30,601 nt of DNA, from positions 1 to 30,601 of IMG/VR virus record IMGVR_UViG_3300037504_000905; one strand, written 5' to 3'. Shown here in pieces: positions 13,234 to 25,379 of the stretch (positions are counted from its first letter, which is position 1; each line of letters opens with the position of its first letter). This DNA comes from a virus. A program made the position numbers and the translations under genes. The notes beneath the pieces were generated by a model that did no database searches, was not told the origin of the DNA, and saw only the letters and a list, made by a program, of their open reading frames with translations.

Positions 13234-13248
13234 GCAAACAAAAAAAAC

Positions 13249-13267
13249 AATTGTCAACTTGACAATT
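13249..13267. promoter_or_regulatory. Palindromic operator over the -35 of the terminase small subunit promoter
   Basis: AATTGTCAA-C-TTGACAATT is a perfect 19-bp palindrome. Its right half is the -35 box of the rightward promoter, and its left half ends 15 bp from the leftward -35. GTCAA-N-TTGAC recurs at 21757-21767 and 22545-22555 over the -35 of two other rightward promoters. This suggests a common repressor or regulator site. Confidence 0.6.
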
Positions 13268-13855: not shown

Positions 13856-14260
13856 TTATTCACATTCCCAATTCAAAGGATAACCAGCATCGGCCCACCC
13901 TTCGATGACCTTCTGCTTGTCAACCTCGTAACTAAACCACACGCCTTCAATTTCTCCTGTATATCTGTCTTTATCACTTTTGATAATTTGTTCAGTAAAT
14001 CTATTTAAAAATTTACTCGGAACCCAAACTATAACTTTGTTACAATTTTCAAACAAACCAGATTCCCTGGCTTGTTCTTCAGATAGATGTACATCCACAT
14101 CGCAACTATAACTATTGACCCTATCTGAAACCAACAACGGATTTAGATTTGGCAAATCAAGCTCGCGTCTTGCTAAATCCAAGCCCACCAAGCCAGAATC
14201 GTGCGATTCAAAATAAACTGCGCCAACACTCTTTCCTGCGAAAACAACTCTGAATTTCAC
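13856..14260 (-). CDS. Unknown small accessory protein
   Basis: The 134-residue protein starts with GTG at 14260, with AAAGGAG eight bases upstream. It begins with a beta strand (KFRVVFAGKSVGAVYFES), continues with SGLVGLDLARREL and ends WADAGYPLNWECE. It includes CNKVIVWVPSKFLNRFTEQIIK, a strand-helix unit resembling one in 14799-15158 (IAIVVLPINLLEAILKF), so the two may share a fold. No catalytic motif is evident. It is the last gene of a three-gene unit driven by the repeat-controlled promoter at 15204. I do not recognise a family. Confidence 0.6.
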   Translation of the reverse strand: MKFRVVFAGKSVGAVYFESHDSGLVGLDLARRELDLPNLNPLLVSDRVNSYSCDVDVHLSEEQARESGLFENCNKVIVWVPSKFLNRFTEQIIKSDKDRYTGEIEGVWFSYEVDKQKVIEGWADAGYPLNWECE

Positions 14261-14282
14261 TTTTCTCTCCTTTGAATTTAAA

Positions 14283-14735
14283 TTATCGTAATCTTAACAA
14301 CTTGTCAAATTCAAACCTCATAGGCTGTTCAACTCCAACAAAGATGAAGCTGCCTTTCTCCATAACAAGTGCACGCGGATTTGCAAACTCAATCAAATCT
14401 ATTGCATTTTTGATGTTGTTTTTCCCTGTCACCTCTCGCGAAAAAACTTTTGCAGCAGGGCGTTTTCCAGGCACAGATTTGACCAGGTAAATTTCCAGCG
14501 GCCCCAGGAGTGCATTGTAATATTTACTATTACTACAAATATCAGCAATAGCCATTGTCAAATCTGGAAAACTCATCTGAAAAATGACTTTATCAAATTT
14601 ACCAGCAGCGTCAATCAAAAAACCCAGAACGATCTCGACGCCAAAAAACGTTTTGTTTTCGACGACGACATCCATGTCGTCGATTCCATACTCATTCTTA
14701 TCAAACTCATGCCGCCCCACAACTAGAACTTTCAT
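14283..14735 (-). CDS. Unknown accessory protein with N-terminal RHE motif
   Basis: This 150-residue protein has an excellent ribosome site (AAAGGAGAGAAAA before ATG). It begins KVLVVGRHEFD; its neighbour 14799-15158 begins KALWLSRHEPT. This shared strand plus RHE may mark a common Rossmann-like start. The middle alternates strands and helices (AAGKFDKVIFQMSFPDLTMAIADI, then YYNALLGPLEIYLVKSV), and the end contains GSFIFVGVEQPM. It looks like an alpha/beta single-domain protein. No enzymatic motif can be assigned. It lies in a unit with two other small genes and probably is an accessory, possibly host-interaction gene. Confidence 0.6.
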   Translation of the reverse strand: MKVLVVGRHEFDKNEYGIDDMDVVVENKTFFGVEIVLGFLIDAAGKFDKVIFQMSFPDLTMAIADICSNSKYYNALLGPLEIYLVKSVPGKRPAAKVFSREVTGKNNIKNAIDLIEFANPRALVMEKGSFIFVGVEQPMRFEFDKLLRLR

Positions 14736-14763
14736 TTTTCTCTCCTTTAAATTAATTTGCTTG

Positions 14764-14789
14764 GGGGATAAGCTTTTGCGCTTATCCCC
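14764..14789. other. Strong intercistronic hairpin
   Basis: GGGGATAAGC (14764-14773) pairs perfectly with GCTTATCCCC (14780-14789) around six bases, right after the stop of the gene at 14799. No U-run follows in the leftward mRNA, so it is better seen as a partial terminator, or an mRNA-processing or stability element inside the operon. Confidence 0.6.
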
Positions 14790-14798
14790 TTGCCTAAA

Positions 14799-15158
14799 TT
14801 ACAAAACTTCTGTTACAACCTCCACCTTAATCACCTTTTCATAGTGACTAAAGCTGAAAACAACATTATCATCAATGATCTCACGATTCATAACAGCACG
14901 CAAAATCATGCCGCCGCTCTTGTAAAAATTACTGAATTTCAGTATTGCTTCCAGTAAATTGATTGGCAATACAACAATTGCAATATTACAGTCGTCAGCC
15001 AACTCATCAAATCTTACAACGGACTCACGGCTATTACTCGGTAATGACTCATCGACCTGTTTGATGTTGGTTTCATCAAACCTATGATGAAACTTTTTTG
15101 TTAAAACTTCTACTTGTTCTTCAGTTGGTTCATGACGTGACAACCATAATGCCTTCAT
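14799..15158 (-). CDS. Unknown accessory protein with N-terminal RHE motif
   Basis: The protein has 119 residues, with an AAAGGAGATAGAA ribosome site before ATG. It opens with KALWLSRHEPTEEQVEVL, a strand then RHE then helix, and has a central IAIVVLPINLLEAILKF and C-terminal ILRAVMNREIIDDNVVFSFSHYEKVIKVEVVTEVL strands. The order strand-helix-strand-helix-beta pair suggests a small alpha/beta sensor- or nucleotide-binding-like fold, but nothing decisive is seen. It is the first gene of the unit from the repeat-controlled promoter at 15204, with about 40 bases of leader. Confidence 0.6.
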   Translation of the reverse strand: MKALWLSRHEPTEEQVEVLTKKFHHRFDETNIKQVDESLPSNSRESVVRFDELADDCNIAIVVLPINLLEAILKFSNFYKSGGMILRAVMNREIIDDNVVFSFSHYEKVIKVEVVTEVL

Positions 15159-15203: not shown

Positions 15204-15282
15204 ATTATACCATAACCATAAAACCATGTCAAGGATTTTATGTTAAGATGGTGTTACAAAATGGTTACGATAACGTTAACAT
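15204..15282 (-). promoter_or_regulatory. Repeat-controlled promoter 1 (four 11-bp repeats)
   Basis: Leftward TATAAT (15204-15209) is preceded by TGG (extended -10), 17 bp and TTGACA (15227-15232). After 9 bp come four direct repeats on the plus strand at 15242, 15253, 15264 and 15275 (GTTAAGA, GTTACAA, GTTACGA, GTTAACAT) on an exact 11-bp pitch. It drives 15158-13856. Confidence 0.85.
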
Positions 15283-15318
15283 GGGATATTGCAAATAAAC
15301 ACAAACGCTCTCAAGCTG

Positions 15319-15378
15319 ATACTACCAGTACCACCATGGTGGTACTAACACAAAAACGGTATTTGGTACTGGTAGTAT
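15319..15378. repeat. Nested inverted repeats next to the FtsK-like gene
   Basis: ATACTACCAGTACCA (15319-15333) and TGGTACTGGTAGTAT (15364-15378) are perfect 15-bp inverted arms, 30 bp apart. Inside, 15327-15346 is a perfect 20-bp palindrome centred on CCATGG. TGGTACT half-sites thus occur three times. The right arm touches the stop of the translocase gene. No T-run follows, so a protein-binding or recombination site is more likely than a terminator. Confidence 0.75.
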
Positions 15379-16826
15379 TACGTTAAAATGCGTTTTACAG
15401 AGCGATAAGCCGCACCTCCGGTGTAACCATAAATACGCTCTTGTATTTCGTTTAGGCTCAAACCTTGTTCATGTAATTCTCTCACAAGTTTATCTTCGCT
15501 GTTATCTTTCGGGGCTGACAAAGATTGCATTGGTTCACCCTGTTGAATTGCATTATAAACTTGTTCGCGAGATACATAAGGTACTTGAATTTCTTGCACT
15601 TCTTTTCCTGTCAATTGTGCCCACGCTCGACCTTTGTTTTTTACATTGCCAACCTTTTGACCAAGCACAACTCTTTGTGATGTCGGACTTGTATGAAAGC
15701 AAATGCGTGTGCTAAAATTATCTCTGGTTTGCGTATCAATAACACTATGCTTTGCATTCTGACCAGCTAACAAAAGGTACACCCCATATTGTCTTGCGGT
15801 TTGCGCAGTTTCTCTCAGGTAATCTCCAATATCATCCTGATTGAGTAAATTTGTGCCTTCATCAACAACTGTAACAATCGGAGACAGATTTTCATTTGAT
15901 TGTTTATTATAAGATTGCAAATTGTGAGCAAGCGGATATTGTTCATACAGCTCTTTCCTGCGATAAATTTCTTGTTGTACACCACTCAATACTGCAATTG
16001 AATCTTCCGTTGTACGTGCTATAGGATACCGCAACCTATTCCAATTTTGCAAAGCGTTAAACGCGCTGCCATTTATGTCAATCAGACACACTTCTAAATT
16101 TTCTTGTGCTTTAGCAAACTGGTAAATGAGTTGCAATAAAAAAATTGACTTTCCCCAACCTGACGCTCCAACCGCAAGTGTATGCATCAAATCATGAATT
16201 GAAGCTGTCAACACTTCATTTTGTGATTTTCCAACGATCAAATTATTTAGACTTGGATTTTTGCATATTTTGTCCAATTCGATCATATTTGGTAGACTTT
16301 CTTGCGTCAGCATATTTTGTTCCGATTGCGGTAACGTATTTTCAGTTTGTTTAACTGTCAAATTATCAGCTTTCAATGCAGCTTGTTTTTGCACATCAAG
16401 CGCTGACAACGCGATTAACGGATGCGCACCAGCGTTATCGCGGTTTGGATCGTATAATGCAAAGTTTCCTAAATTGATAATCGGAAAAATTCCATTCTCA
16501 GGCTTAATCATGCGGCTTTTCATATCAAACCACTCCAACGCAACTTGCAATGTTCGATAGAATGCATAGAACATCAGAACGAATACACCTACAATTGAAA
16601 AAATTTTAATGCCTTCCCATGCTTTTTTGCTTGCAATTTTCCATGGCAACAACGCTCTTTGCTGAGCAAGTTCTATTTCTCTTGTTTTGCTATCGAGCCT
16701 ATCCACGGTAAATTTATATGCACCAGATAAAATGCAGCCTGATGCAAATGCAATCAAAACAAGAACGGTTAATGCGACTACATCAAATTTTATTCCTCTG
16801 ATTCTATTCTTTAGTCTTTTTGTCAT
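15378..16826 (-). CDS. FtsK/HerA-like membrane DNA translocase
   Basis: The 482-residue protein is counted from ATG 16826, which overlaps the previous gene by 23 bases; the frame extends to 16889 but without a better start. Two membrane segments lie at about 14-36 and 75-93. An FtsK-type ATPase domain follows with Walker A GASGWGKS near 218-225 and Walker B IVTVVDEG near 316-323, plus TRICFHTSPTSQRVVLG and GRAWAQL motifs typical of FtsK/SpoIIIE and plasmid-transfer ATPases. The last ~35 residues (EQGLSLNEIQERIYGYTGGAAYRSVKRIL) look like a helix-turn-helix. It may move phage DNA at the membrane, or serve segregation or transfer of a plasmid-like prophage. It is the third gene of a three-gene membrane module. 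Confidence 0.8.
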   Translation of the reverse strand: MTKRLKNRIRGIKFDVVALTVLVLIAFASGCILSGAYKFTVDRLDSKTREIELAQQRALLPWKIASKKAWEGIKIFSIVGVFVLMFYAFYRTLQVALEWFDMKSRMIKPENGIFPIINLGNFALYDPNRDNAGAHPLIALSALDVQKQAALKADNLTVKQTENTLPQSEQNMLTQESLPNMIELDKICKNPSLNNLIVGKSQNEVLTASIHDLMHTLAVGASGWGKSIFLLQLIYQFAKAQENLEVCLIDINGSAFNALQNWNRLRYPIARTTEDSIAVLSGVQQEIYRRKELYEQYPLAHNLQSYNKQSNENLSPIVTVVDEGTNLLNQDDIGDYLRETAQTARQYGVYLLLAGQNAKHSVIDTQTRDNFSTRICFHTSPTSQRVVLGQKVGNVKNKGRAWAQLTGKEVQEIQVPYVSREQVYNAIQQGEPMQSLSAPKDNSEDKLVRELHEQGLSLNEIQERIYGYTGGAAYRSVKRILT

Positions 16827-17121
16827 TTTGCTTATCCCACAACAAATATATAATAATTCCAACCAACAAAACCCTATCAGCGATTGCATACAAAAAATTC
16901 ATATTTGCATCAATAAAGCTTGCCCATGCCAAAGGTAAAATTTGCAAGCGTTCATTTTGTTCTTCCATAAGCTGTTGTTGCGCAAGTTTATTTTCAGCTT
17001 GCACTTCTAAATACTTTGTATTGACAGCTTTGTAAATCAAATCACCCAAACCAAAGTTTAACGCAATTCCTAAAATGATTATCATTCCTATTATAAATAC
17101 AAAAAACCTTTTAAGTCTCAT
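16804..17121 (-). CDS. Small membrane protein with coiled segment
   Basis: The protein has 105 residues. Residues 5-23 are hydrophobic (RFFVFIIGMIIILGIALNFG), followed by a charged helical segment with EVQAENKLAQQQLMEEQNERLQ (probable coiled coil). A second membrane segment (VLLVGIIIYLLW) is followed by a basic tail. The start overlaps the end of the winged-helix gene by 11 bases, with GAGG nine bases before it. Sandwiched between two membrane partners, it probably forms a complex with the FtsK-like translocase. The family is not recognised. Confidence 0.6.
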   Translation of the reverse strand: MRLKRFFVFIIGMIIILGIALNFGLGDLIYKAVNTKYLEVQAENKLAQQQLMEEQNERLQILPLAWASFIDANMNFLYAIADRVLLVGIIIYLLWDKQNDKKTKE

Positions 17122-17758
17122 TCACTAAAACCTCACCATTTATTTTTGTAATCTTATTTGCTTTTTCCAATTCATTTAAATAATTGTAAACCGTTGGCTC
17201 GCTCACATCAAGCTGTTTTGCAATATCGCTCACAGTAATTCTACCATTATTTTTAAGCAACTCTAAAAGAACACTCATTCTTTTTTGTTTGCTTGACAAC
17301 CTCGACTCGACAATATTTTTTGTAGCATCCATTCTGGCAAGGTACAATCCAAACTCTAAAAAATTACCATAACTATCCAGTGCTGCAAGTAATCCTAATG
17401 CAATTGGAGTCCACACTTGCACGAAACTTGACCACATTGCTTTTGCACCTAATAATGTTGCAAAAGCTAATACCACGCCCACAAATGTGGACATTACACT
17501 TATCACAAGTGCAATCCAATCCCATATTTGCTTACTGTCACCCTTGCGATAAATCTCAATTACATTTGACAATGTGCCAACCTCACTGCCGAACGCCAGC
17601 GAAAATGAACCACACAAAACAAGTCCAGTCCTAAACCATTGTGGTAACACTTGCAACTCCGTAAAACTAAATGCAAGCACAGCAAAACAGAAAAAACCAA
17701 CGGCGCTCGCTACACTTGGAACCAATAAACTTAACCCTCTCCATCCCAAAACTTTCAT
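17111..17758 (-). CDS. Multi-pass membrane protein with C-terminal winged helix
   Basis: This 215-residue protein has a clear AAGGAGATTTT before ATG. Four or so hydrophobic segments occupy residues 5-140 (PSVASAVGFFCFAVLAF, FRTGLVLCGSFSLAFG, IWDWIALVISVMSTFVGVVLAFATLL, WTPIALGLLAALDSYGNFL). Residues about 155-212 are a winged helix (KQKRMSVLLELLKNNGRITVSDIAKQLDVSEPTVYNYLNELEKANKITKI). A membrane-anchored DNA-binding protein next to an FtsK-like motor could tether a DNA site to the membrane or sense a membrane signal. It is the first gene of this three-gene unit, read from the promoter at 17790. Confidence 0.7.
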   Translation of the reverse strand: MKVLGWRGLSLLVPSVASAVGFFCFAVLAFSFTELQVLPQWFRTGLVLCGSFSLAFGSEVGTLSNVIEIYRKGDSKQIWDWIALVISVMSTFVGVVLAFATLLGAKAMWSSFVQVWTPIALGLLAALDSYGNFLEFGLYLARMDATKNIVESRLSSKQKRMSVLLELLKNNGRITVSDIAKQLDVSEPTVYNYLNELEKANKITKINGEVLVNET

Positions 17759-17789
17759 AAAATCTCCTTTCTTAAATTGTGTACTTCAT

Positions 17790-17817
17790 ATTATACCATT
17801 ATTCTAAAACAAGTCAA
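17790..17817 (-). promoter_or_regulatory. Promoter of the FtsK-like module
   Basis: Leftward TTGACT (17812-17817), 16 bp, TATAAT (17790-17795) has the same TGG extended -10 as the other accessory promoters. It lacks the 11-bp repeats, so this unit appears to be outside that control. Confidence 0.75.
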
Positions 17818-17841
17818 ACTTATATGTATTACAACGCAAAT

Positions 17842-17877
17842 AAAAAAGGCTTAGATTTTTAGTCTAAGCCCTTTTTT
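17842..17877. terminator. Bidirectional terminator, GGCTTAGA family
   Basis: GGCTTAGA (17848-17855) pairs with TCTAAGCC (17863-17870), with A6 on the left and a T-run on the right. It ends the leftward unit above and shields the FtsK module. Near-identical stems occur at 21311 and 27902. Confidence 0.85.
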
Positions 17878-17897
17878 TAAACAAATTTATGCTATTA

Positions 17898-18224
17898 TCA
17901 GCACGGTGTCACATCAATCTCGCAACCGCAGCACCCGTAACCAGCATCGGGGGCTTCTAGCCTGAGGAAATTTACAATCCCTGGCTGATTAATATCATAG
18001 CTGGGATGCCCCTCTCGCCATGCGCTAAGCGCGCGATGCTCATCAACCGACAACTTCTTTGGCCACCAGGACGATTTCCAAATCGCACGACAAACAACCT
18101 CTCCGCCAGCATCATTGATTAATCTCTGGTTACATATTACCTCGGTGGCCGGCGCCTTCGCTGACTCCAGAACTCTAACCCCTTTCCCCTTTCGGTAAAT
18201 CCACAATCTGGTTTTCTGTTTCAT
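17898..18224 (-). CDS. Unknown small protein with C-terminal cysteines
   Basis: The protein has 108 residues, with AAAGGAGAGAGCA before ATG. It opens basic (KQKTRLWIYRKGKGVRVLESAKAPA) and has WKSSWWPKKLSVDEHRALSAWREGHPSYDINQPGIVNFLRLEAPDAGYGCCGCEIDVTPC, where CCxC plus a terminal Cys could bind a metal. The SxDEHRALxAWREG helix is distinctive, but no family is recognised. It is the second gene of the unit controlled by the promoter at 18577 and ends at the terminator at 17842. Confidence 0.6.
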   Translation of the reverse strand: MKQKTRLWIYRKGKGVRVLESAKAPATEVICNQRLINDAGGEVVCRAIWKSSWWPKKLSVDEHRALSAWREGHPSYDINQPGIVNFLRLEAPDAGYGCCGCEIDVTPC

Positions 18225-18238
18225 TGCTCTCTCCTTTT

Positions 18239-18550
18239 TTATGCTGACTTAACAACAAACTTAACTGCTTTGTCTGAACTTGTTGCAATATTTCCGTTTT
18301 GATCAACAAAGTAAACCTCACTTTTTGTTAACCAATCTCCAATAACATCCAAGCCGTAACGCGCCCTGACCTGGTGGGGATAACAACAAGCTATCTTAAA
18401 GCCCTTTTCAATAGCTTCTAGCACCCTACTATCATTTAAGGCGGGTAATGCGCCAGATTCGTGACCATGCATCACGATCACTTTTTGGCTATCTAAAATA
18501 GCCACTGGCTTGCCCGCTTTGTGTGCTATTAGCTTCTCGAAGTCTGTCAT
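18239..18550 (-). CDS. Unknown small protein with HGHE and CCYPH motifs
   Basis: The protein has 103 residues, with AAAGGGGGTAAA before ATG. The core is KPVAILDSQKVIVMHGHESGALPAL, then LEAIEKGFKIACCYPHQVRARYGLDVIGDW, then a beta pair. A strand ending in HGHESG and a later strand ending in ACC are faintly like the His/Cys dyad of caspase-type folds, but the protein is much shorter than such a domain. I take this only as a resemblance. It is the first gene after the repeat-controlled promoter at 18577. Confidence 0.6.
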   Translation of the reverse strand: MTDFEKLIAHKAGKPVAILDSQKVIVMHGHESGALPALNDSRVLEAIEKGFKIACCYPHQVRARYGLDVIGDWLTKSEVYFVDQNGNIATSSDKAVKFVVKSA

Positions 18551-18576
18551 TTTACCCCCTTTCCTAACTTGACCTA

Positions 18577-18655
18577 ATTATACCACCGATGATACATTAC
18601 GTCAAGCGATTTGTGTTACGATTGTGTTACGAAACCGTTGCGAAGCCGTTAACAT
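18577..18655 (-). promoter_or_regulatory. Repeat-controlled promoter 2 (four 11-bp repeats)
   Basis: Leftward TATAAT (18577-18582) with TGG before it, 17 bp, TTGACG (18600-18605), 9 bp, then repeats at 18615, 18626, 18637 and 18648 (GTTACGA, GTTACGA, GTTGCGA, GTTAACAT). The repeats overlap the 3' end of the upstream gene. The -35 differs from consensus by one base. Confidence 0.85.
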
Positions 18656-18989
18656 GAGAAGTTGCAACAGGAATAATAATCTCAAATCCATGGCAATCAT
18701 CACGAATATGTGATCGCCAATTTTCCACATTATCCCAAACACGCATGCTTCCAGGATACCCCATGAGAACTTTCTGCGCGTGCGGAATATCAAACAAAAC
18801 TGAATTAGTCCTGTTTGAGTTTTTCCAATAAGTGTTGTCTTCGCATTCCACAGGAACGCAAAACACAACACTTTGAATTGACTGCTGCCGACTAACATCC
18901 TCAATAAAGGCGAGATTTCCGCCAGCAATGCAATATTCATTGTTAACAAAAATCTCGTTTTTATTCTCTGTCCATTGAATCATTTTCAT
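18627..18989 (-). CDS. Unknown small protein
   Basis: The protein has 120 residues, with AAGGGGGTTAAA before ATG. It starts KMIQWTENKNEIFVNNEYCIAGG and contains QSVVFCVPVECEDNTYWKNSNRTNSVLFDIPHAQKVLMGYPGSMRVWDN. Mixed strands and no transmembrane segment suggest a soluble protein. Its last ~10 codons are also the repeat array of the next promoter, so this coding end is constrained by both. It follows 19000-19518 in the same unit. The family is not recognised. Confidence 0.55.
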   Translation of the reverse strand: MKMIQWTENKNEIFVNNEYCIAGGNLAFIEDVSRQQSIQSVVFCVPVECEDNTYWKNSNRTNSVLFDIPHAQKVLMGYPGSMRVWDNVENWRSHIRDDCHGFEIIIPVATSHVNGFATVS

Positions 18990-18999
18990 TTTAACCCCC

Positions 19000-19518
19000 T
19001 TAGAATTTGTAATTTAATATTTCTTCATCCGAGAAAAGCTCCTCAATTTCCTCAGACGTGCAATCAAGCTCATTCGCTATATAGATAGCCCTGGAATGTA
19101 TTTTCACGCCGTCCCGTTCTGGTTCCGGCTCCGGCTCCGGATCCGGCTTAGGTCCAAGTTTCCACTCCAAGAGTTGACCGTATGAACGAGTGCGGCCACG
19201 GCGATATGTGCGAGGCACATAAACAAAGTGCCCCGTGTGCTGCGTCCCTCTCGGTAAAAGATCCTTGGTGCGCGTGTAGTGACGAGAAACCACACCTTGG
19301 CACACCACTTCAAAAATAGCCCACGGTAGCTCAGGTCCATAACGCCATCCGCTTACTTTGTGGATGGCTTGCGACTTACCGCTTGCCACCACAATACCCT
19401 CTACTTCTGGAAGTTGTGCGGTAAGCTCCTCCTCTTTACCGCCCCCGAAGTTCCTCGTACGAAGAACCTCGCGCCCATCGGCGCCCTTAACTACTTTTGC
19501 CCATTCTGTTAATTGCAT
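19000..19518 (-). CDS. Unknown accessory protein with acidic Pro-Glu linker
   Basis: The protein has 172 residues, with AAAGGGGGGGAGACA before ATG. It begins with LTEWAKVVKGADGREVLRTRNFGGGKEEE, has a basic middle (RHYTRTKDLLPRGTQHTGHFVYVPRTYRRGRTRSYGQLLEWK), then a low-complexity DPEPEPEPE linker near residues 128-138 and an acidic helical end (DCTSEEIEELFSDEEIL). The gene is visibly more GC-rich, with codons such as GGC, CGG and CCG, than the terminase or replication genes around it, which suggests later acquisition. The function is unknown. It is the first gene from the promoter at 19556. Confidence 0.6.
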   Translation of the reverse strand: MQLTEWAKVVKGADGREVLRTRNFGGGKEEELTAQLPEVEGIVVASGKSQAIHKVSGWRYGPELPWAIFEVVCQGVVSRHYTRTKDLLPRGTQHTGHFVYVPRTYRRGRTRSYGQLLEWKLGPKPDPEPEPEPERDGVKIHSRAIYIANELDCTSEEIEELFSDEEILNYKF

Positions 19519-19555
19519 TGTCTCCCCCCCTTTAATCCCTCTCTGAACTGTCCTA

Positions 19556-19634
19556 ATTATACCAGAACGATCGTACTATGTCAAGTAAAAAGCGTTACGA
19601 TTATGTTACGATTGCGTTACGAAAGCGTTAACAT
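19556..19634 (-). promoter_or_regulatory. Repeat-controlled promoter 3 (four 11-bp repeats)
   Basis: Leftward TATAAT (19556-19561) with TGG before it, 17 bp, TTGACA (19579-19584), 9 bp, then repeats at 19594, 19605, 19616 and 19627 (GTTACGA three times, then GTTAACAT). This is the cleanest copy. Confidence 0.9.
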
Positions 19635-19695
19635 GAGATATTGTAAATAATACCACTTTATAAAATTTTACTGATAGCCCTTACTTACATTAAAC

Positions 19696-19723
19696 TTTAC
19701 ATATAAAAAATTTGTGCTATAAT
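19696..19723 (+). promoter_or_regulatory. Leaderless promoter of terminase large subunit
   Basis: TTTACA (19696-19701), 16 bp with TGTGC before the -10, then TATAAT (19718-19723). The expected transcription start is at or beside the ATG at 19730, so no leader or ribosome site exists. Confidence 0.75.
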
Positions 19724-19729
19724 TATAAT

Positions 19730-21277
19730 ATGAATTTTGAAGATGAGCTTGTAGACAAAATAGTTGAAATGAGTTTTATCCAAAAACAAGCATACCTTAA
19801 GTCGCTTTCTAAAACTGAAAGGCAAATTCTAAAAGCTGTTTTGGAACATAAAACTGTACCAAAAGAATTGTGTAAACTTAGAGATAATTCAGCAAGCTTT
19901 ACAGATTGGATTATATCACATTTTTATGTACCAGAACTAAATGGCCCCATAGCGCTCAAACAATATCAAATTGATGCACTTAATAAAGCCACAAGTAAAA
20001 ATGAAGACGGTCTATACAACTATTCTTTAATTTTATGGATGGATATTAAAAAATCAATTAAAAGTTGTATAGCCGCCGCCGTCGCTCTGAGAATGGCTTT
20101 TATGCGCAATTGGGCCTCAATAAAAGTTGTTGCAAACAAACGTGACCAAGCCGCATCACGTAGCTATTTTTACATCACGCGATCTTTAAAACTTAATCCT
20201 GAGACAAACACAATGCTACAAAGCGGTGACATAAAAATCAATAACTACAAAATTGAATTCAAATTCAATAATGCAAGTATTCAGGCATTACCTCTTAATC
20301 CAGAAGGTGAAGCAGGTGGCAATGATGATCTAATTATTTGGACTGAAGCCTGGGCCGCAAAAACAAAAGCGGCTCAAACTATGTTTACAGAAATGGTTAT
20401 ACCGCCCAACAAATTTGGTAAAGGCTTCAAATGGATAGAATCATATGCAGGTTACAGTGGAGACAGTCCAATACTAGAAAGATTGTACAAAGAAAATGTT
20501 GAAAATGGCAACAAACTAAATGACACAATGTACGAAAATGGCCAAACCTTCGCATTATACAATACAATTCCACGTTTGCCTTGGCAATCAAAAGAATATT
20601 ATGCACAACAAGCCAAAGAATTAACTGAATCTGAATTCAATCGTGTGCATAGAAACATTTGGCAATCATCTACAAACAAATTTGTTGAAAATCTACAATG
20701 GGACCTATGCAAAAGAAGAATACCGCCACTTAAACACAAGGAAAAATTATTACTTGCACTTGATGTCGGTTTACATAACGACTGCTTTGCAATTGTCGGG
20801 GTCAACAAAATAAATGGAAAAATAGCTGTGCGCACAATTCGTGTATGGAAACCACAAAAAGGACAAAAACTTCATTTTTCTAACCCCAATCCAAAAGACA
20901 AAAAAAATGATGCAAACTATCCTTTTGGTTACATACAAAAATTATGCAAAGAATACCGTGTAATTGCATTACGCTACGATCCATATCAAGCTGAAAAACT
21001 TGCTGAAGACCTGGAGCGCGAACGTATTATCAACTGCGAGCCATTTTCGCAACTTTCCTTGCGCACTAAAGCAGACAAATATTTACAGGACATTATACGT
21101 GAACAAGAAATAATTCATCCTGATCATCCTGTGCTCACACAACACATTTACAATGCACAAGCACAACACAAGGGTGAAAACAAATTACGCATGGTCAAAT
21201 CTACTGACACAAAAAAAATAGATGCAGCCGTAGCTCTCGCCATGGCTGCGTACTCAATCAAAGATTATAGAATGTAA
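19730..21277 (+). CDS. terL: Terminase large subunit
   Basis: The protein has 515 residues. The start is ATG 19730, because the -10 box ends at 19723; an in-frame TTG at 19712 lies over the promoter. The N-terminal ATPase domain has a P-loop-like DIKKSIKS at 105-112, in which Ile110 stands where Walker A normally has Gly. The Walker-B region is LIIWTEAW, with Glu206 kept and Thr at the usual Asp. The C-terminal RNase-H-like nuclease looks intact: Asp345 (LALDVG), Asp417 (RYDPYQ) and Asp498 (KKIDAAVALAMA). It packages DNA into heads with the small subunit, encoded 5.9 kb away. ATPase motif changes may be a family trait or a defect. A hairpin terminator follows. Confidence 0.9.
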   Translation: MNFEDELVDKIVEMSFIQKQAYLKSLSKTERQILKAVLEHKTVPKELCKLRDNSASFTDWIISHFYVPELNGPIALKQYQIDALNKATSKNEDGLYNYSLILWMDIKKSIKSCIAAAVALRMAFMRNWASIKVVANKRDQAASRSYFYITRSLKLNPETNTMLQSGDIKINNYKIEFKFNNASIQALPLNPEGEAGGNDDLIIWTEAWAAKTKAAQTMFTEMVIPPNKFGKGFKWIESYAGYSGDSPILERLYKENVENGNKLNDTMYENGQTFALYNTIPRLPWQSKEYYAQQAKELTESEFNRVHRNIWQSSTNKFVENLQWDLCKRRIPPLKHKEKLLLALDVGLHNDCFAIVGVNKINGKIAVRTIRVWKPQKGQKLHFSNPNPKDKKNDANYPFGYIQKLCKEYRVIALRYDPYQAEKLAEDLERERIINCEPFSQLSLRTKADKYLQDIIREQEIIHPDHPVLTQHIYNAQAQHKGENKLRMVKSTDTKKIDAAVALAMAAYSIKDYRM

Positions 21278-21307
21278 CCAAACAATTACACTGTTTGGTT
21301 TAGTTTT
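21276..21307 (+). terminator. Terminator after terminase large subunit
   Basis: AACCAAACA (21276-21284) and TGTTTGGTT (21292-21300) pair perfectly around seven bases, followed by TAGTTTT. The stem overlaps the stop codon. Confidence 0.8.
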
Positions 21308-21308
21308 C

Positions 21309-21338
21309 AAAAAGGCTTAGATTTTACTCCAAGCCTTT
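21309..21338 (-). terminator. Leftward terminator, GGCTTAGA family
   Basis: AAAGGCTT pairs with AAGCCTTT (21311-21318 with 21331-21338), and in the leftward direction a TTTTTG tail follows. It ends the unit of the gene at 21354. Its left arm is the same GGCTTAGA sequence as in the terminators at 17842 and 27902. Confidence 0.75.
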
Positions 21339-21353
21339 AGGAATCACACAAAA

Positions 21354-21620
21354 TTATGCTAATGCTTTCTTGATCAAGATTTTATCCGAAGGTGGCGCTT
21401 TCACCTCTCCACTATTCAAATCTATATATCCTTTTCCTTTGCTGCTATTCCTCATTTGCCCGTTGCGATCATAATGAGCGAATGAATAATACAAGCGAAC
21501 ATGACCATATTTTTCCCAACGATTAAATCTGATTACAGACCTCCACCCTGTATGCTTCGGAGCAATTTTTACTTCTTGCATCTTGTTAATTGCCTGAATT
21601 TGCTCTTGTGTCAGTTTCAT
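21354..21620 (-). CDS. Unknown small protein
   Basis: The protein has 88 residues, with AAAAGGAGAGAACA before ATG. It is basic (KIAPKHTGWRSVIRFNRWEKYGHVRLYYSFAHYDRNGQMRNSSKGKGYIDLNSGEV), likely a small beta-rich domain; GWRSVIRFNRWEKYGHVRLYYS could be a nucleic-acid binding face. It is a single-gene unit between the repeat-controlled promoter at 21670 and the terminator at 21309. No family is recognised. Confidence 0.6.
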   Translation of the reverse strand: MKLTQEQIQAINKMQEVKIAPKHTGWRSVIRFNRWEKYGHVRLYYSFAHYDRNGQMRNSSKGKGYIDLNSGEVKAPPSDKILIKKALA

Positions 21621-21669
21621 TGTTCTCTCCTTTTGTTTTAATGTTTAGTGTTTATCCTTAACTATCTCA

Positions 21670-21748
21670 ATTATACCACTATCCCCATACTATGTCAATA
21701 GAATAGTGTTACGATTGTGTTACGAAATGGTTACGAAAACGTTAACAT
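21670..21748 (-). promoter_or_regulatory. Repeat-controlled promoter 4 (four 11-bp repeats)
   Basis: Leftward TATAAT (21670-21675), 17 bp, TTGACA (21693-21698), 9 bp, then repeats at 21708, 21719, 21730 and 21741 (GTTACGA three times, then GTTAACAT). The base pair before TATAAT is the usual TGG. It drives the gene at 21620. Confidence 0.9.
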
Positions 21749-21887
21749 TAAACTTTGTCAAGTTGACTACCCAAACAATTTGTGATATAATACTTTCAAG
21801 ATGATTGATTGCATCCTCAATTAATTCTGCACCACGTGCAGAACTTAATTCTGCTTCGATTTCTCTTATAAACTTTTCCTTATTCAT
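21720..21887 (-). CDS. Unknown 55-residue protein
   Basis: An ATG at 21887, two bases after the stop of the 26-residue gene, opens a frame to TAA at 21720. It encodes MNKEKFIREIEAELSSARG, then AELIEDAINHLESIISQIVWVV. The first ~40 residues are an amphipathic helical pair with coding-like composition. The last ~15 residues run through an oppositely oriented promoter and the repeat array, so the C-terminus may be incidental. The ribosome site is weak, so coupling to the previous gene is likely. Confidence 0.5.
   Translation of the reverse strand: MNKEKFIREIEAELSSARGAELIEDAINHLESIISQIVWVVNLTKFNVNVFVTIS
21763..21791 (+). promoter_or_regulatory. Orphan rightward promoter, copy of the HNH-operon promoter
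   Basis: TTGACT (21763-21768), 17 bp, TATAAT (21786-21791), preceded by the GTCAAGTTGAC palindrome (21757-21767). About 64 bp (21740-21797) are nearly identical to the promoter at 22551. Only a 7-codon frame follows (ATG 21801), so it either makes an RNA antisense to the leftward small genes or is a duplication remnant. Confidence 0.65.
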
Positions 21888-21889
21888 TT

Positions 21890-21970
21890 TTAAACCCATA
21901 TCGTATTATAATATCTAGCAAATGCTTCCCTACCTTTAAATTTCCCAAATGTCAAAGTTCTTTTATTCAT
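21890..21970 (-). CDS. 26-residue micro-ORF
   Basis: The ATG at 21970 has a strong GGGAGAGAGCA ribosome site of the same kind as the neighbouring genes, and the frame ends TAA at 21890. The product (MNKRTLTFGKFKGREAFARY plus six residues) is basic. Its spacing, two bases before the next start and sixteen after the zinc-ribbon stop, argues that it is translated. Confidence 0.45.
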   Translation of the reverse strand: MNKRTLTFGKFKGREAFARYYNTIWV

Positions 21971-21985
21971 TGCTCTCTCCCTTTT

Positions 21986-22201
21986 TTAATGATTCTTTCT
22001 CAAATCTTTATAGTAATCACAAGATTCACAAATTGCGATATCATTCTCTACAAAAAGAAACTTTTCAGACCCGCAATTTGGGCAAACATTGGGCCTAGGA
22101 ACCCAATAAAACTCGGGTAAATACGGATAATATTCGGCACACAAACAGCACGCCTCATAATCATCTTTAATAATTTTCCTAAATTTAGGTATATCGGATT
22201 C
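21986..22201 (-). CDS. Zinc-ribbon reading frame without its own start
   Basis: This frame encodes ESDIPKFRKIIKDDYEACCLC and later RPNVCPNCG and CESCDYYKDLRKNH: three CxxC pairs, a rubredoxin-like or zinc-ribbon arrangement of about 70 residues. No ATG, GTG or usable TTG precedes the first CxxC. It begins exactly where 22200-22409 stops, after a run of nine T in the leftward mRNA. Deleting one T would fuse the two into a single protein (GWEKVFF-ESDIPKF). So this is most likely the C-terminal half of that gene, reached by a +1 slip, a phase-variable tract or a one-base sequence error. A start at ATT inside the frame is the alternative. Confidence 0.6.
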   Translation of the reverse strand, partial: ESDIPKFRKIIKDDYEACCLCAEYYPYLPEFYWVPRPNVCPNCGSEKFLFVENDIAICESCDYYKDLRKNH

Positions 22202-22409
22202 AAAAAAAAACTTTTTCCCACCCGCTTACCCTTTCAGCATCTTGCACCCAGAGCTCGCCGTTTTCGAGAGCTTTGGATATATCCATGCTTACATGAATAT
22301 CTGGAAGATCATTACAATCCTCAAGCGCCCAAAATGCGCCATTGGCGCAGGGGCCATCATGCTTACGCTTTTTGCCATTCGGTATACTAAAACTTCTAAC
22401 AAGATTCAT
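22200..22409 (-). CDS. Unknown small protein, N-terminal half of a probable zinc-ribbon fusion
   Basis: The start is ATG 22409 (69 residues), with GGGGGAGATTGAA before it; a TTG at 22424 would sit upstream of that ribosome site. The protein reads SFSIPNGKKRKHDGPCANGAFWALEDCNDLPDIHVSMDISKALENGELWVQDAERVSGWEKVFF. Its stop TGA comes right after a T9 tract, beyond which a zinc-ribbon frame continues. It is the first gene of the unit from the promoter at 22458. The domain itself is not recognised. Confidence 0.6.
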   Translation of the reverse strand: MNLVRSFSIPNGKKRKHDGPCANGAFWALEDCNDLPDIHVSMDISKALENGELWVQDAERVSGWEKVFF

Positions 22410-22457
22410 TTCAATCTCCCCCAAAGTACTATGAACTTGTCTCTCTCGGCTGTCCTA

Positions 22458-22536
22458 ATTATACCACTATTTATATACTATGTCAATAAATAAGTGTTAA
22501 GATTGCGTTACGATAACGTTACAGAAACGTTAACAT
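22458..22536 (-). promoter_or_regulatory. Repeat-controlled promoter 5 (four 11-bp repeats)
   Basis: Leftward TATAAT (22458-22463) with TGG before it, 17 bp, TTGACA (22481-22486), 9 bp, then repeats at 22496, 22507, 22518 and 22529 (GTTAAGA, GTTACGA, GTTACAG, GTTAACAT). It is divergent from the HNH-operon promoter, so the repeats may act on both sides. Confidence 0.85.
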
Positions 22537-22550
22537 TAAACTTTGTCAAG

Positions 22551-22579
22551 TTGACTGTTTGGTCAATTTGTGATATAAT
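22551..22579 (+). promoter_or_regulatory. Leaderless promoter of the HNH-methyltransferase-primase operon
   Basis: TTGACT (22551-22556), 17 bp with TGTGA before the -10, then TATAAT (22574-22579). The ATG at 22586 is where transcription should begin. GTCAAGTTGAC (22545-22555) overlaps the -35. Confidence 0.8.
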
Positions 22580-22585
22580 ACTTTC

Positions 22586-22825
22586 ATGCTCACAGATATG
22601 ATATGGAAGCTCAAGAAACTTCGCTACAAAATGTATTTAAAAAGCCCGCAATGGAAACGCAAGCGTTACGCTGTTCTATGTCGTGACAATTTTAGATGCA
22701 CAAAATGCGGACGCAAACACCATTTACACGTGCACCATAAAACATACGAGCATATATTCAATGAACCATTGAGGGATTTAATAACACTATGCAAAAAGTG
22801 TCATCAGAAAGAACACAAAAGATAA
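22586..22825 (+). CDS. HNH endonuclease
   Basis: This 79-residue protein has the full HNH pattern: CTKCG at about 38-42, then HLHVHHKTYEH around 47-57, an N in IFNEPLRDL and CKKCH at 69-73 near the end. The two CxxC pairs bind the structural zinc, and HVHH provides the catalytic histidines. A basic N-terminus (WKLKKLRYKMYLKSPQWKRKRYAVLC) is typical of small phage HNH nucleases, which often act in packaging or cut DNA at the packaging site. It overlaps the methyltransferase start by 37 bases and has no leader, so it is the head of a leaderless operon. Confidence 0.85.
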   Translation: MLTDMIWKLKKLRYKMYLKSPQWKRKRYAVLCRDNFRCTKCGRKHHLHVHHKTYEHIFNEPLRDLITLCKKCHQKEHKR

Positions 22826-23763
22826 ATGTATTATCATTATTTGACGGAATAAGTTGTGGGCAACTTGCATTGCAAAAAGCCGGTATAGAATACAATCAAT
22901 ATTTTGCAAGCGAAATTGACAAATATCCCATAGCAGTTACACAAAAAAGATTTCCAGAAACGATCCAGCTTGGCAACATAGAAAATTGGCATAAATGGAA
23001 ACTGCCAAAAATAGATTTAATTATAGGCGGTTCACCATGTCAAGGTTTTTCCAGTGCTGGCAATCAATTAAATTTTGACGACCCAAGAAGCAAACTATTT
23101 TTTGAATTTGTAAATGTCATCAATCACTACAAGCCACAATACTTTTTGTTGGAAAACGTCAAAATGAAAAAAGAATGGAGTGACATTATAACTAAATACA
23201 TGAAAGTCAAACCAATTTTAATCAATAGTGCATTGGTGTCTGCACAAAGAAGAAAAAGATTGTACTGGACAAATATACCTAATGTAATGCAACCAAAAGA
23301 CAAAAAGATATTATTGCAAGACATTATCGAACATGGTTATACAGAAAAAAACAAAAGTTATTGTTTGGTGTCAAGTTATACACCATCACTAAAAAGATAT
23401 TTGAAAAAACACATGCATCAAATTGTATGGAATAACTGGAATGCACACAAATCAAAACTGAGAATTATAGCCAACTCAAGATGTATTGATGAAAAATCAC
23501 CATCATGTACAACAAGAATGAATAACCCGAACAATAACGGTACTACGGTTTTGTTTTATAAAAATTTAACATGGCGCAAATTAACACCACTAGAATGTGA
23601 ACGTTTGCAAACAATACCAGACAATTATACTCTTGTTGCACATCCACACTTTCATGGTAAAATGATGTCTGATTCACGACGTTACATGATGATTGGAAAT
23701 GCTTGGACGGTAGATGTAATTGCACACATTTTTAGTTTTATGAATTATAACAAGGGAGATTGA
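22789..23763 (+). CDS. DNA (cytosine-5) methyltransferase
   Basis: This 324-residue protein has the ordered C5-methyltransferase motifs: I (LSLFDGISCGQLAL, SAM binding), IV (GGSPCQGFSSAGN, catalytic Cys84), VI (ENVK at 122), VIII (QRRKRLYW), IX (RKLTPLECERLQTIP) and X (MIGNAWTVDVIAHI). The target-recognition region between VIII and IX is about 100 residues, so one short site is probably recognised. It likely shields phage DNA from host restriction. The HNH gene ahead is too generic to call a restriction partner. The start ATG lies inside the HNH gene; motif I begins only about 13 residues later, so no N-terminal extension is needed. Confidence 0.9.
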   Translation: MQKVSSERTQKINVLSLFDGISCGQLALQKAGIEYNQYFASEIDKYPIAVTQKRFPETIQLGNIENWHKWKLPKIDLIIGGSPCQGFSSAGNQLNFDDPRSKLFFEFVNVINHYKPQYFLLENVKMKKEWSDIITKYMKVKPILINSALVSAQRRKRLYWTNIPNVMQPKDKKILLQDIIEHGYTEKNKSYCLVSSYTPSLKRYLKKHMHQIVWNNWNAHKSKLRIIANSRCIDEKSPSCTTRMNNPNNNGTTVLFYKNLTWRKLTPLECERLQTIPDNYTLVAHPHFHGKMMSDSRRYMMIGNAWTVDVIAHIFSFMNYNKGD

Positions 23764-23768
23764 ATTAA

Positions 23769-23966
23769 ATGAAAGAGAAATCACTAATTGTAGAAACAAA
23801 CCAACCAGAAACTTTTATAGAAAGAATATATGAATTAGTATATGAGTTTGAGGAATTGTCAGCAGATCCGTTTCAAGAAGGTAATTTACTATTTTTTACA
23901 AAACTCAATCATTCAAACAAAAATTCATTTTGTTTAGAAGTACAAGAGCTTAAGGGAAAAAACTAA
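23769..23966 (+). CDS. Unknown small protein of the replication operon
   Basis: This 65-residue protein starts six bases after the methyltransferase stop and ends immediately before the primase start. The sequence is ETFIERIYELVYEFEELSADPFQEGNLLFFTKLNHSNKNSFCLEVQELKG, a helix followed by a beta pair. There is AAGGGAG before the start region. Its position makes a replication accessory role plausible, but the family is not recognised. Confidence 0.55.
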   Translation: MKEKSLIVETNQPETFIERIYELVYEFEELSADPFQEGNLLFFTKLNHSNKNSFCLEVQELKGKN

Positions 23967-25379
23967 ATGGATATTGTAACTTGTATTGAACGTGAAGAAC
24001 AAGGTGACTCAACAATATTCTCAGAACTGTTTGAAGATAAAGTAATTTATGACCACAAGGAAAGCACATGGTATTTATGGAATGGTCACATTTGGCAACG
24101 TGACGATAAACAACAGGTATACAACCTTACTGAGCTTGTAGCAGAAACATATCAAGAAAATATGAGCGCACTTCCTAGCCACTTCCTCAAAAAATGCGCA
24201 TATCGCATTCGCCGCCTACATCGTCTTGTCGGTATAAGAAATTGCTTAGAACTTGCAAAATCTAAAATGTCATTAGATACTGATTGGGATAATGATCCAT
24301 TCAAACTTGCAGTATCAAACGGCGTGCTAAATTTAGAAACCGGTGAACTGGAAAAAGGAAAACCTGATGATTACATCAGAACTACAAGCAAAATTGAATG
24401 GAAAGGATTAGACGAACCGGCACCACGTTTTGAAAAATTCCTAGAAGAAATATTTAATGGCAATCAAGAAGTCATCAAATTCATACAGCGCCTTTTTGGT
24501 TATGCAATGACAGGTTTAAATGTCGAGCACGTTTTACCAATATTTTATGGGCCGGAAGGACGTAACGGCAAAGGTGTTTTACTCAAAATTATTTGTCATG
24601 TTTTAGGAAACGATCTTGCCAGCCCCGTCTCAAAAGAAATTCTACTCAGCGGAATTCGCAATCCTGGCGCATCAGCTCCATTCCTTTTTGAATTACAAGA
24701 CAAGCGCTTCGTATACGCTGAAGAAACAACAGAAGGTGCAAAATTTGACGAAGGTCAAGTCAAAATGCTAACAGGCGGCACGCCATTTGCCGCAAAAGAA
24801 CTTTATCATCAGCCTGTGACCATTACTCCAAAATATTTGTTAGTAATGACAACCAACTCCAAACCACAAGTTTCTGCTGACGACCCAGCGATTTGGGAAA
24901 GAATATTACTCATCGAATTTACGCAACGTTTTATGGAAAATCCAGAACTTGACAACGAAAGAAAAATTGACAAATTTTTATACGAAAAGCTAACCAAAGA
25001 AGCATCTGGTATTTTGGCTTGGCTTGTGAAGGGTTGCATGGAATGGCAAAAGCACAAATCATTGCGGACACCACAATGCGTTAAATATACCACTGATGCA
25101 TACAAAAATGACCAAGATTCCATTGGGCGCTTTCTAAAAGATGAATGCAAAATTCTGGATGACGCAAAAGTGTATGCTTCAGATTTACAATCTCGCTATA
25201 ACACCTGGGCAACCGGTGATACAAAAAAAATGAATCGTCATGAATTCTCTAAATCAATTCGTGATAAAGGCTTTGAAAGAAATCGTGATGCATCAGGTTA
25301 CTACTACACCGGATTGCAACTTAAACCACACGCATCAAACTCACTTGAACATGAACTAGAAAAATACCTTGACAATTAA
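23967..25379 (+). CDS. Phage/plasmid primase-helicase (D5/P4 family)
   Basis: This 470-residue protein has a D5_N-type N-terminal domain (YDHKESTWYLWNGHIWQ, then LAVSNGVLNLETGELEKGKPDDYIRTTS) and a superfamily-3 helicase domain: Walker A GPEGRNGKG at 195-203, Walker B FVYAEET near 248-254, KMLTGGTPFAAKELY and the sensor MTTNSKP. A C-terminal wing (FLKDECKILDDAKVYASDLQSRYNTWA) closes it. The archaeo-eukaryotic primase catalytic half of longer P4-type proteins is not apparent, so it may act mainly as a helicase. It unwinds the replication origin, a candidate for which is at 27613-27885. A promoter for the next gene overlaps the end of this one. Confidence 0.9.
   Translation: MDIVTCIEREEQGDSTIFSELFEDKVIYDHKESTWYLWNGHIWQRDDKQQVYNLTELVAETYQENMSALPSHFLKKCAYRIRRLHRLVGIRNCLELAKSKMSLDTDWDNDPFKLAVSNGVLNLETGELEKGKPDDYIRTTSKIEWKGLDEPAPRFEKFLEEIFNGNQEVIKFIQRLFGYAMTGLNVEHVLPIFYGPEGRNGKGVLLKIICHVLGNDLASPVSKEILLSGIRNPGASAPFLFELQDKRFVYAEETTEGAKFDEGQVKMLTGGTPFAAKELYHQPVTITPKYLLVMTTNSKPQVSADDPAIWERILLIEFTQRFMENPELDNERKIDKFLYEKLTKEASGILAWLVKGCMEWQKHKSLRTPQCVKYTTDAYKNDQDSIGRFLKDECKILDDAKVYASDLQSRYNTWATGDTKKMNRHEFSKSIRDKGFERNRDASGYYYTGLQLKPHASNSLEHELEKYLDN

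Follow-up and report, generated by a model that had tools for sequence, protein, structure and literature searches.

What would act on five promoters of one phage that carry the same row of repeated motifs at the same distance? The question is raised by the IMG/VR virus record IMGVR_UViG_3300037504_000905 (G000), a linear sequence of 30,601 bp, the whole of which is the window analyzed here. An initial annotation described five copies of the layout (boxes 1 to 5, Table 1) and read the repeats as operators of the Pho-box kind for a dispersed regulon of accessory genes. The reading favored here, with confidence evenly balanced, is that each of the five boxes joins a TG-extended, near-consensus sigma-70 promoter to a predicted operator array, all five arrays serving one response regulator of the OmpR family. 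From the sequence, the array is best read as of the WalR/MtrA/RpaB kind rather than as a Pho box, and the regulator would probably be encoded by the host.

The layout is common to all five boxes: TATAAT, 17 bp, TTGAC(A/G), exactly 9 bp, and four units on an 11-bp pitch. In the direction of transcription it reads ATGTTAAC-N4-TCGTAAC-N4-TCGTAAC-N4-TCGTAAC-N9-TTGACA-N17-TATAAT, with TGG preceding the -10. The positions and spacings first described were recovered throughout, and a looser pattern, in which T.GTAAC-like units repeat every 11 bp, TTGAC follows after 7-13 bp and TA...T after a further 16-18 bp, has five matches in the window and none in 1000 dinucleotide-preserving shuffles. The description of three GTTACGA units per box holds as a consensus only, with 10 of the 15 inner units exact and the rest reading GTTAAGA (two), GTTACAA, GTTGCGA and GTTACAG; the fourth and most distal unit, GTTAACAT (ATGTTAAC in the direction of transcription), is invariant in all five boxes. 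The -10 is TG-extended in every box, and the five promoters are among the best sigma-70 matches of the region, four of them scoring 12/12 against the consensus and one 11/12. A position weight matrix of the array gives 52.6-59.0 at the five sites, 20.8 at a shifted overlap of them and at most 15.0 elsewhere in the window, a gap of more than 30 bits between the five sites and the rest, and the scan finds no sixth copy in the window. Other consensus-like promoters of the record (13259+, 17817-, 25369+, 27609- and 30314-) are without such an array.

Conservation within the boxes is uneven. Mean pairwise identity among the five is 0.83-1.0 in the unit cores and 0.93-1.0 in the -35 and -10 hexamers, as against 0.43 in the 9-bp gap, 0.38-0.70 in the 4-bp spacers and 0.54 in the 17-bp spacer; the leaders, 20-60 bp past the -10, average 0.28. 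The gap has been held constant in length and has drifted in sequence. This pattern of conserved cores and hexamers with drifted sequence between them supports the earlier proposal of a common regulator site under selection. The accompanying statement that the sequence is otherwise unrelated holds only in part: boxes 4 and 5 have an upstream flank in common, divergent promoter included, and leader sequence is common to boxes 1 and 4; some copies of the box are thus local duplicates. Box 2 sits within the last codons of open reading frame 18627-18989 (VNGFATVS), as is expected of a cassette. It might be argued from the shared flanks and from this inserted position that the five boxes are merely copies of a promoter cassette duplicated too recently to have diverged, and that they tell little about a regulator. 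The divergence of the gap, some spacers and the leaders around intact cores and hexamers, and the independent presence of the same plan in the L020 and G407/G408 phages described below, make this very improbable.

OmpR-family operators consist of head-to-tail direct repeats of 6-7 bp, with about 4-5 bp between them and a pitch of 10-11 bp (PMC10609481, PMC4168254). The five arrays have this layout, in agreement with the original suggestion of OmpR-family-type repeats of 7 + 4 bp, and they stand at one promoter distance in 5/5 cases, with no others in the record. Judged by their motifs, the arrays would be bound by an OmpR-family protein, the four 11-bp units holding two head-to-tail dimers.

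The kind of regulator was approached by fitting published consensuses to the arrays on both strands and at all offsets. The WalR/VicR consensus, which comes from Bacillota, a phylum to which the window's host may not belong, fits 0.89 of positions over four units; an MtrA core, itself informal, fits 0.92; and the HLR1 core fits 0.83 only when its pitch, 10 bp in HLR1, is set to 11. WalR sites follow TGTWAH-N5-TGTWAH with an 11-bp pitch, and footprinted high-affinity examples include TGTAAT-N5-CGTAAT (PMC4168254). Three exact copies of this consensus are present in the window against 0.40 expected, one each in boxes 1, 2 and 4 and none outside the boxes; boxes 3 and 5 have one mismatch to it. 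In a five-array sample from G407/G408 the WalR TGTWAH fit is 1.0. The Pho-box interpretation fared poorly: units of E. coli PhoB (CTGTCAT) and Streptomyces PhoP (GTTCACC) match 0.49-0.53 of positions at the best offset, and no phosphate link of the sort that a Pho regulon would show is present among the tested downstream genes, none of which has a family match above cut-off.

With the -10 placed at -12 to -7, the units would fall at about -51 to -45, -62 to -56, -73 to -67 and -84 to -78, just upstream of the -35 and on one face of the helix. The alpha-subunit C-terminal domain (alpha-CTD) of RNA polymerase and class-I activators act just upstream of the -35. Since the arrays sit at -45 to -85, where these act, the regulator is most likely an activator rather than a repressor. 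WalR sites upstream of the -35 are associated with activation (PMC10746227), and RpaB acts as an activator at -66 to -45 (PMC13421787); an activator of the WalR/RpaB clade is preferred because the proximal pair of units, at roughly -62 to -45 with +1 taken from the -10, agrees with these positions. The host's own WalR/MtrA/RpaB-type regulator would then bind the arrays, one DNA-binding protein would switch all five small-gene units together, and the small accessory genes of the phage would thereby be tied to the envelope or growth state of the host. The promoters themselves are probably early or accessory-gene promoters.

The same plan is found in phages with no detected relationship to the window. 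Contig L020 (11.3 kb, 60% GC), which has no protein similarity to the window, carries the array GTTAAAA-GTTACGA-GTTACGA-GTTACGA on an 11-bp pitch before TTGACA/TATAAT, with 19 bp between the array and TTGAC, a helical turn more than in the window boxes. A leftward run of small open reading frames lies behind the array and a divergent promoter on its opposite side; the 21-mer GTTACGATTGCGTTACGAAAG is common to L020 and box 3. A repeated GC-rich segment (CGTCCGCCTGCGCTCTGCGGTCGGCTTCCGCTCCCTCGTTTGCCTCC...) stands between some of the small genes of this array (L020:300-1200). In each of the stretches from G407 and G408, four promoters share a strand; TTGAC follows T.GTAAC-like units after 10 bp and lies 17 bp from the -10, and 7/8 of these promoters have a small open reading frame 25-35 bp downstream. 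G409 has three such promoters and distant relatives among Enterococcus phages, in whose own series of TTGACA-17-TATAAT promoters A-rich upstream tracts stand in place of the repeats. G407-G409 form a clade of larger phages, and G407-G411 and others have proteins in common among themselves, while window proteins have no homologue in the stretches compared of G407-G411-type loci. No relative of the window phage was found in the viral contigs by way of its terminase, FtsK-like protein or D5 primase.

A scan of viral contigs for GTCAA-N{4,34}-GTTACRA-N4-GTTACRA returned 105 stretches. The initial annotation had held that random spacing in unrelated genomes would remove the need for a selected site; the distance to TTGAC is non-random, with a gap of 9-11 bp in 19 of 70 independent matches after clustering (6.8 expected, p = 2.6e-5), the expectation being equal use of 31 gaps and some of the 70 clusters being coding repeats. 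TTAAC units precede TTGAC-17-TATAAT in L012 and L014 (Bacillota). Two contigs, L005 and L006, called cyanophage-like from ferredoxin, collagen-like tail and SbcCD-like matches, have GTTACAA-type triplets 9 bp before TTGACA-17-TACAAT, which is suggestive only. GTTACGA repeats in viral contigs L016, L019, L022 and L023 were set aside, as they have no promoter. The pattern GTCAA-9-GTTA gave eight scattered matches in genome contigs, mostly chance; box 3 gave weak chance matches at most among annotated phages and plasmids; and no promoters of this kind occur in Clostridioides phage CP067347, which is distantly related to G407.

Related, large Bacillota phages show a variant of the plan. In Phage Phass-1 (L145), L143 and Enterococcus phage H1 (L144), TTGACA-17-TATAAT/TACAAT stands before almost every small early gene, in a dense series, and the upstream tracts are A-rich, often ending in GGGG or GGC. 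A consensus promoter for each small gene is thus a common plan, and the phased repeats sit where the UP element would be. Because A-rich tracts lie at the same place in these phages and in MT837012, before small genes, and because the 11-bp pitch phases the units onto one face, the arrays might be a sequence-specific UP-like element contacting alpha-CTD, or a phased bendable module, with no dedicated regulator. This is decidedly unlikely: the units are a specific 7-mer and not A-tracts, three to four copies reach to -85, and the core of the 7-mer is kept in genomes ranging from 28% to 60% GC.

Several points weigh against an activating host regulator of the OmpR family. With a -35 and a -10 so close to perfect, an activator is not obviously needed, and many half-sites of the window are CGTAAC/CGTTAC, one base from the WalR half-site. 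In the viral contigs, proper -10 sequences are in excess at 9-11 bp relative to other distances, but not significantly so (p = 0.11). GTTACGA-N4-GTTACGA-N4-GTT is absent from 398 sampled Bacillota genomes, and the TGTAAY architecture was met once in 61 Bacillota genomes, about the chance level; the same layout is therefore not seen in use on host-type chromosomes in these scans. Finally, the record is a fragment, which leaves room for a phage-encoded regulator elsewhere. A regulator of that origin, either not of the OmpR family or encoded outside the 30.6 kb, could coordinate the five promoters in the manner of stoperators or phage activators, and the concentration of the sites in phages and their scarcity in the sampled Bacillota chromosomes speak for it. 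One winged-helix protein (17111-17758) is encoded in the window and had been put forward as the regulator. Its C-terminal domain matches HTH_24/HTH_11/DeoR-like families (DeoR/Lrp type) behind an apparently membrane N-terminal half, in an operon with an FtsK-like gene, and it was rejected as a candidate; no OmpR-type (Trans_reg_C) DNA-binding domain is encoded in the record. No protein is common to the window and the compared stretches of phages with this architecture, and the arrays lie at -45 to -85, whereas repressors usually overlap the promoter. A phage-encoded regulator is on the whole rather unlikely.

The host-regulator reading can be widened, tentatively and with less confidence than is placed in it for the five boxes. 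Unrelated phages of differing hosts may have come independently to set phased T.GTAAC arrays ahead of near-consensus promoters of small accessory genes, at a distance of 9-11 bp or one helical turn more, so that an essential WalR/MtrA/RpaB-type host regulator would gate early expression by envelope or growth state; such a device would be widespread and apparently undescribed. To our knowledge, host response regulators control phage genes in only a few cases, those of CtrA and PhoB. Both are established (PMC9437464, PMC10976474). In phages of Alphaproteobacteria, sites of CtrA, likewise an essential host regulator of the OmpR family, are clustered in phage promoters and arose independently in unrelated phages; their motif is TTAA-N7-TTAA, they gather in gap regions and do not form a single fixed array at each promoter, and binding was shown by gel shift and reporters (PMC9437464), whereas the window arrays are predicted sites. 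PhoB likewise acts as a host response regulator upstream of accessory genes in cyanophages (P-SSM2 pstS; S-PM2d, PMC10976474), through Pho boxes (PyTTAAPyPyT/A) that are loosely conserved and variably placed and that the window arrays match weakly.

Among the box types themselves, WalR/VicR/YycF boxes of Bacillota are also direct repeats on an 11-bp pitch, and those upstream of the -35 go along with activation (PMC4168254, PMC10746227), but the window has four units instead of two, near-consensus promoters and the variant half-sites noted above. The RpaB HLR1 of cyanobacteria has KTTACAWW-like direct repeats, and its activating position is that of the two proximal window units, but its pitch is 10 bp (8 + 2) and not 11 (PMC13421787). 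MtrA sites of Actinobacteria are 6-7 bp direct repeats with a 4-bp spacer (for example GTTATCAAATCGTTATG, 11-bp pitch), but occur as loosely conserved pairs, and the comparison is informal (PMC10609481, PMC5650626). The early promoters of Enterococcus phage H1 and Phass-1 are similarly dispersed, each before a small gene of no known function, and differ in lacking phased T.GTAAC repeats. What seems to be new is a fixed cassette of four-unit putative operator and consensus promoter that stands before several accessory units and is met again in unrelated phages. Openly accessible papers, which leave out most subscription articles, yielded nothing relevant on WalR-type control of phage early promoters, a weak negative. 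If the interpretation is true, the recurring cassette would flag which host regulator a phage listens to, aid in recognizing host-takeover genes and supply a promoter part whose switching can be predicted, and the reading of host cell wall state by phages through WalR-type regulators would become testable.

The view that the downstream genes are small accessory genes forming a dispersed group finds support. An open reading frame with a Shine-Dalgarno sequence begins 26-49 bp past the -10 of every box, and each unit has one to three small frames (Table 1); those scanned have no match above cut-off in Pfam, PHROG, NCBIfam or PADLOC. The product of 21986-22144 is zinc-ribbon-like by eye (CPNCG..CESCD). 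That of 14799-15158 starts with MKALWLSRHEPTEEQ and contains VVLPINLLE; by eye it recalls Csx16-type ring nucleases, with no hidden Markov model match, and its structure predicted without an alignment is unusable (mean predicted local distance difference test score, pLDDT, 52).

Table 1. Boxes, associated sites and genes of the window
Feature	Position	Strand or direction	Details
Box 1	15204..15282	(-)	-10 15204-15209; -35 15227-15232; units at 15242, 15253, 15264, 15275
Box 2	18577..18655	(-)	-35 is TTGACG; units at 18615, 18626, 18637, 18648
Box 3	19556..19634	(-)	units at 19594, 19605, 19616, 19627
Box 4	21670..21748	(-)	units at 21708, 21719, 21730, 21741
Box 5	22458..22536	(-)	units at 22496, 22507, 22518, 22529
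Exact WalR consensus, box 1	15241-15257		TGTTAAGATGGTGTTAC
Exact WalR consensus, box 2	18614-18630		
Exact WalR consensus, box 4	21707-21723		
Divergent promoter beside box 5	22551-22579		TTGACT-17-TATAAT; serves rightward HNH/methylase genes
Box 1 unit	13856..15158	(-)	frames 14799-15158, 14283-14735, 13856-14260, each with strong Shine-Dalgarno; no family match
Box 2 unit	17842..18550	(-)	frames 18239-18550, 17898-18224, then terminator-like hairpin 17842-17876
Box 3 unit	18627..19518	(-)	frames 19000-19518, 18627-18989; no family match above cut-off
Box 4 unit	21354..21620	(-)	single frame, 88 amino acids, no family match; faces 3' end of terminase gene
Box 5 unit	21720..22424	(-)	frames 22200-22424, 21986-22144, 21720-21899
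FtsK-like ATPase	15378-16889	leftward	trio operon
Small membrane-like protein	16804-17121	leftward	trio operon
Winged-helix protein	17111-17758	leftward	trio operon; apparently multi-span membrane N-terminal half, C-terminal winged helix
Terminase large subunit	19712-21277		
HNH / C5-methylase / D5-type primase block	22586-25379	rightward	

All five boxes are on the minus strand, between this rightward block and a leftward run of siphovirus tail genes, recognized by family matches to Sipho_Gp37, SPP1-type Dit and a PhageMin_Tail tape measure. The trio that includes the FtsK-like ATPase (15378-17758) is an unusual combination in one leftward operon. Two near-identical terminator-like hairpins (AAAAAGGCTTAGATTTT...AAGCC), at 17842-17876 and 21309-21343, each follow a different leftward unit and look as if they had spread along with the cassettes. 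At 21757-21770, 22545-22557 and 13244-13265 a palindrome-like sequence, TTGTCAAGTTGAC (or TTGTCAACTTGACAA), covers part of the -35 of opposite-strand promoters; it is a second putative operator, at which a repressor acting on the rightward genes would probably bind. Just to the right of box 1, after the FtsK-like gene, mirrored copies TACTACCAGTACCA / TGGTACTGGTAGTA stand around CACCATGGTG (15320-15385), a segment that might form a long hairpin or represent another putative operator.

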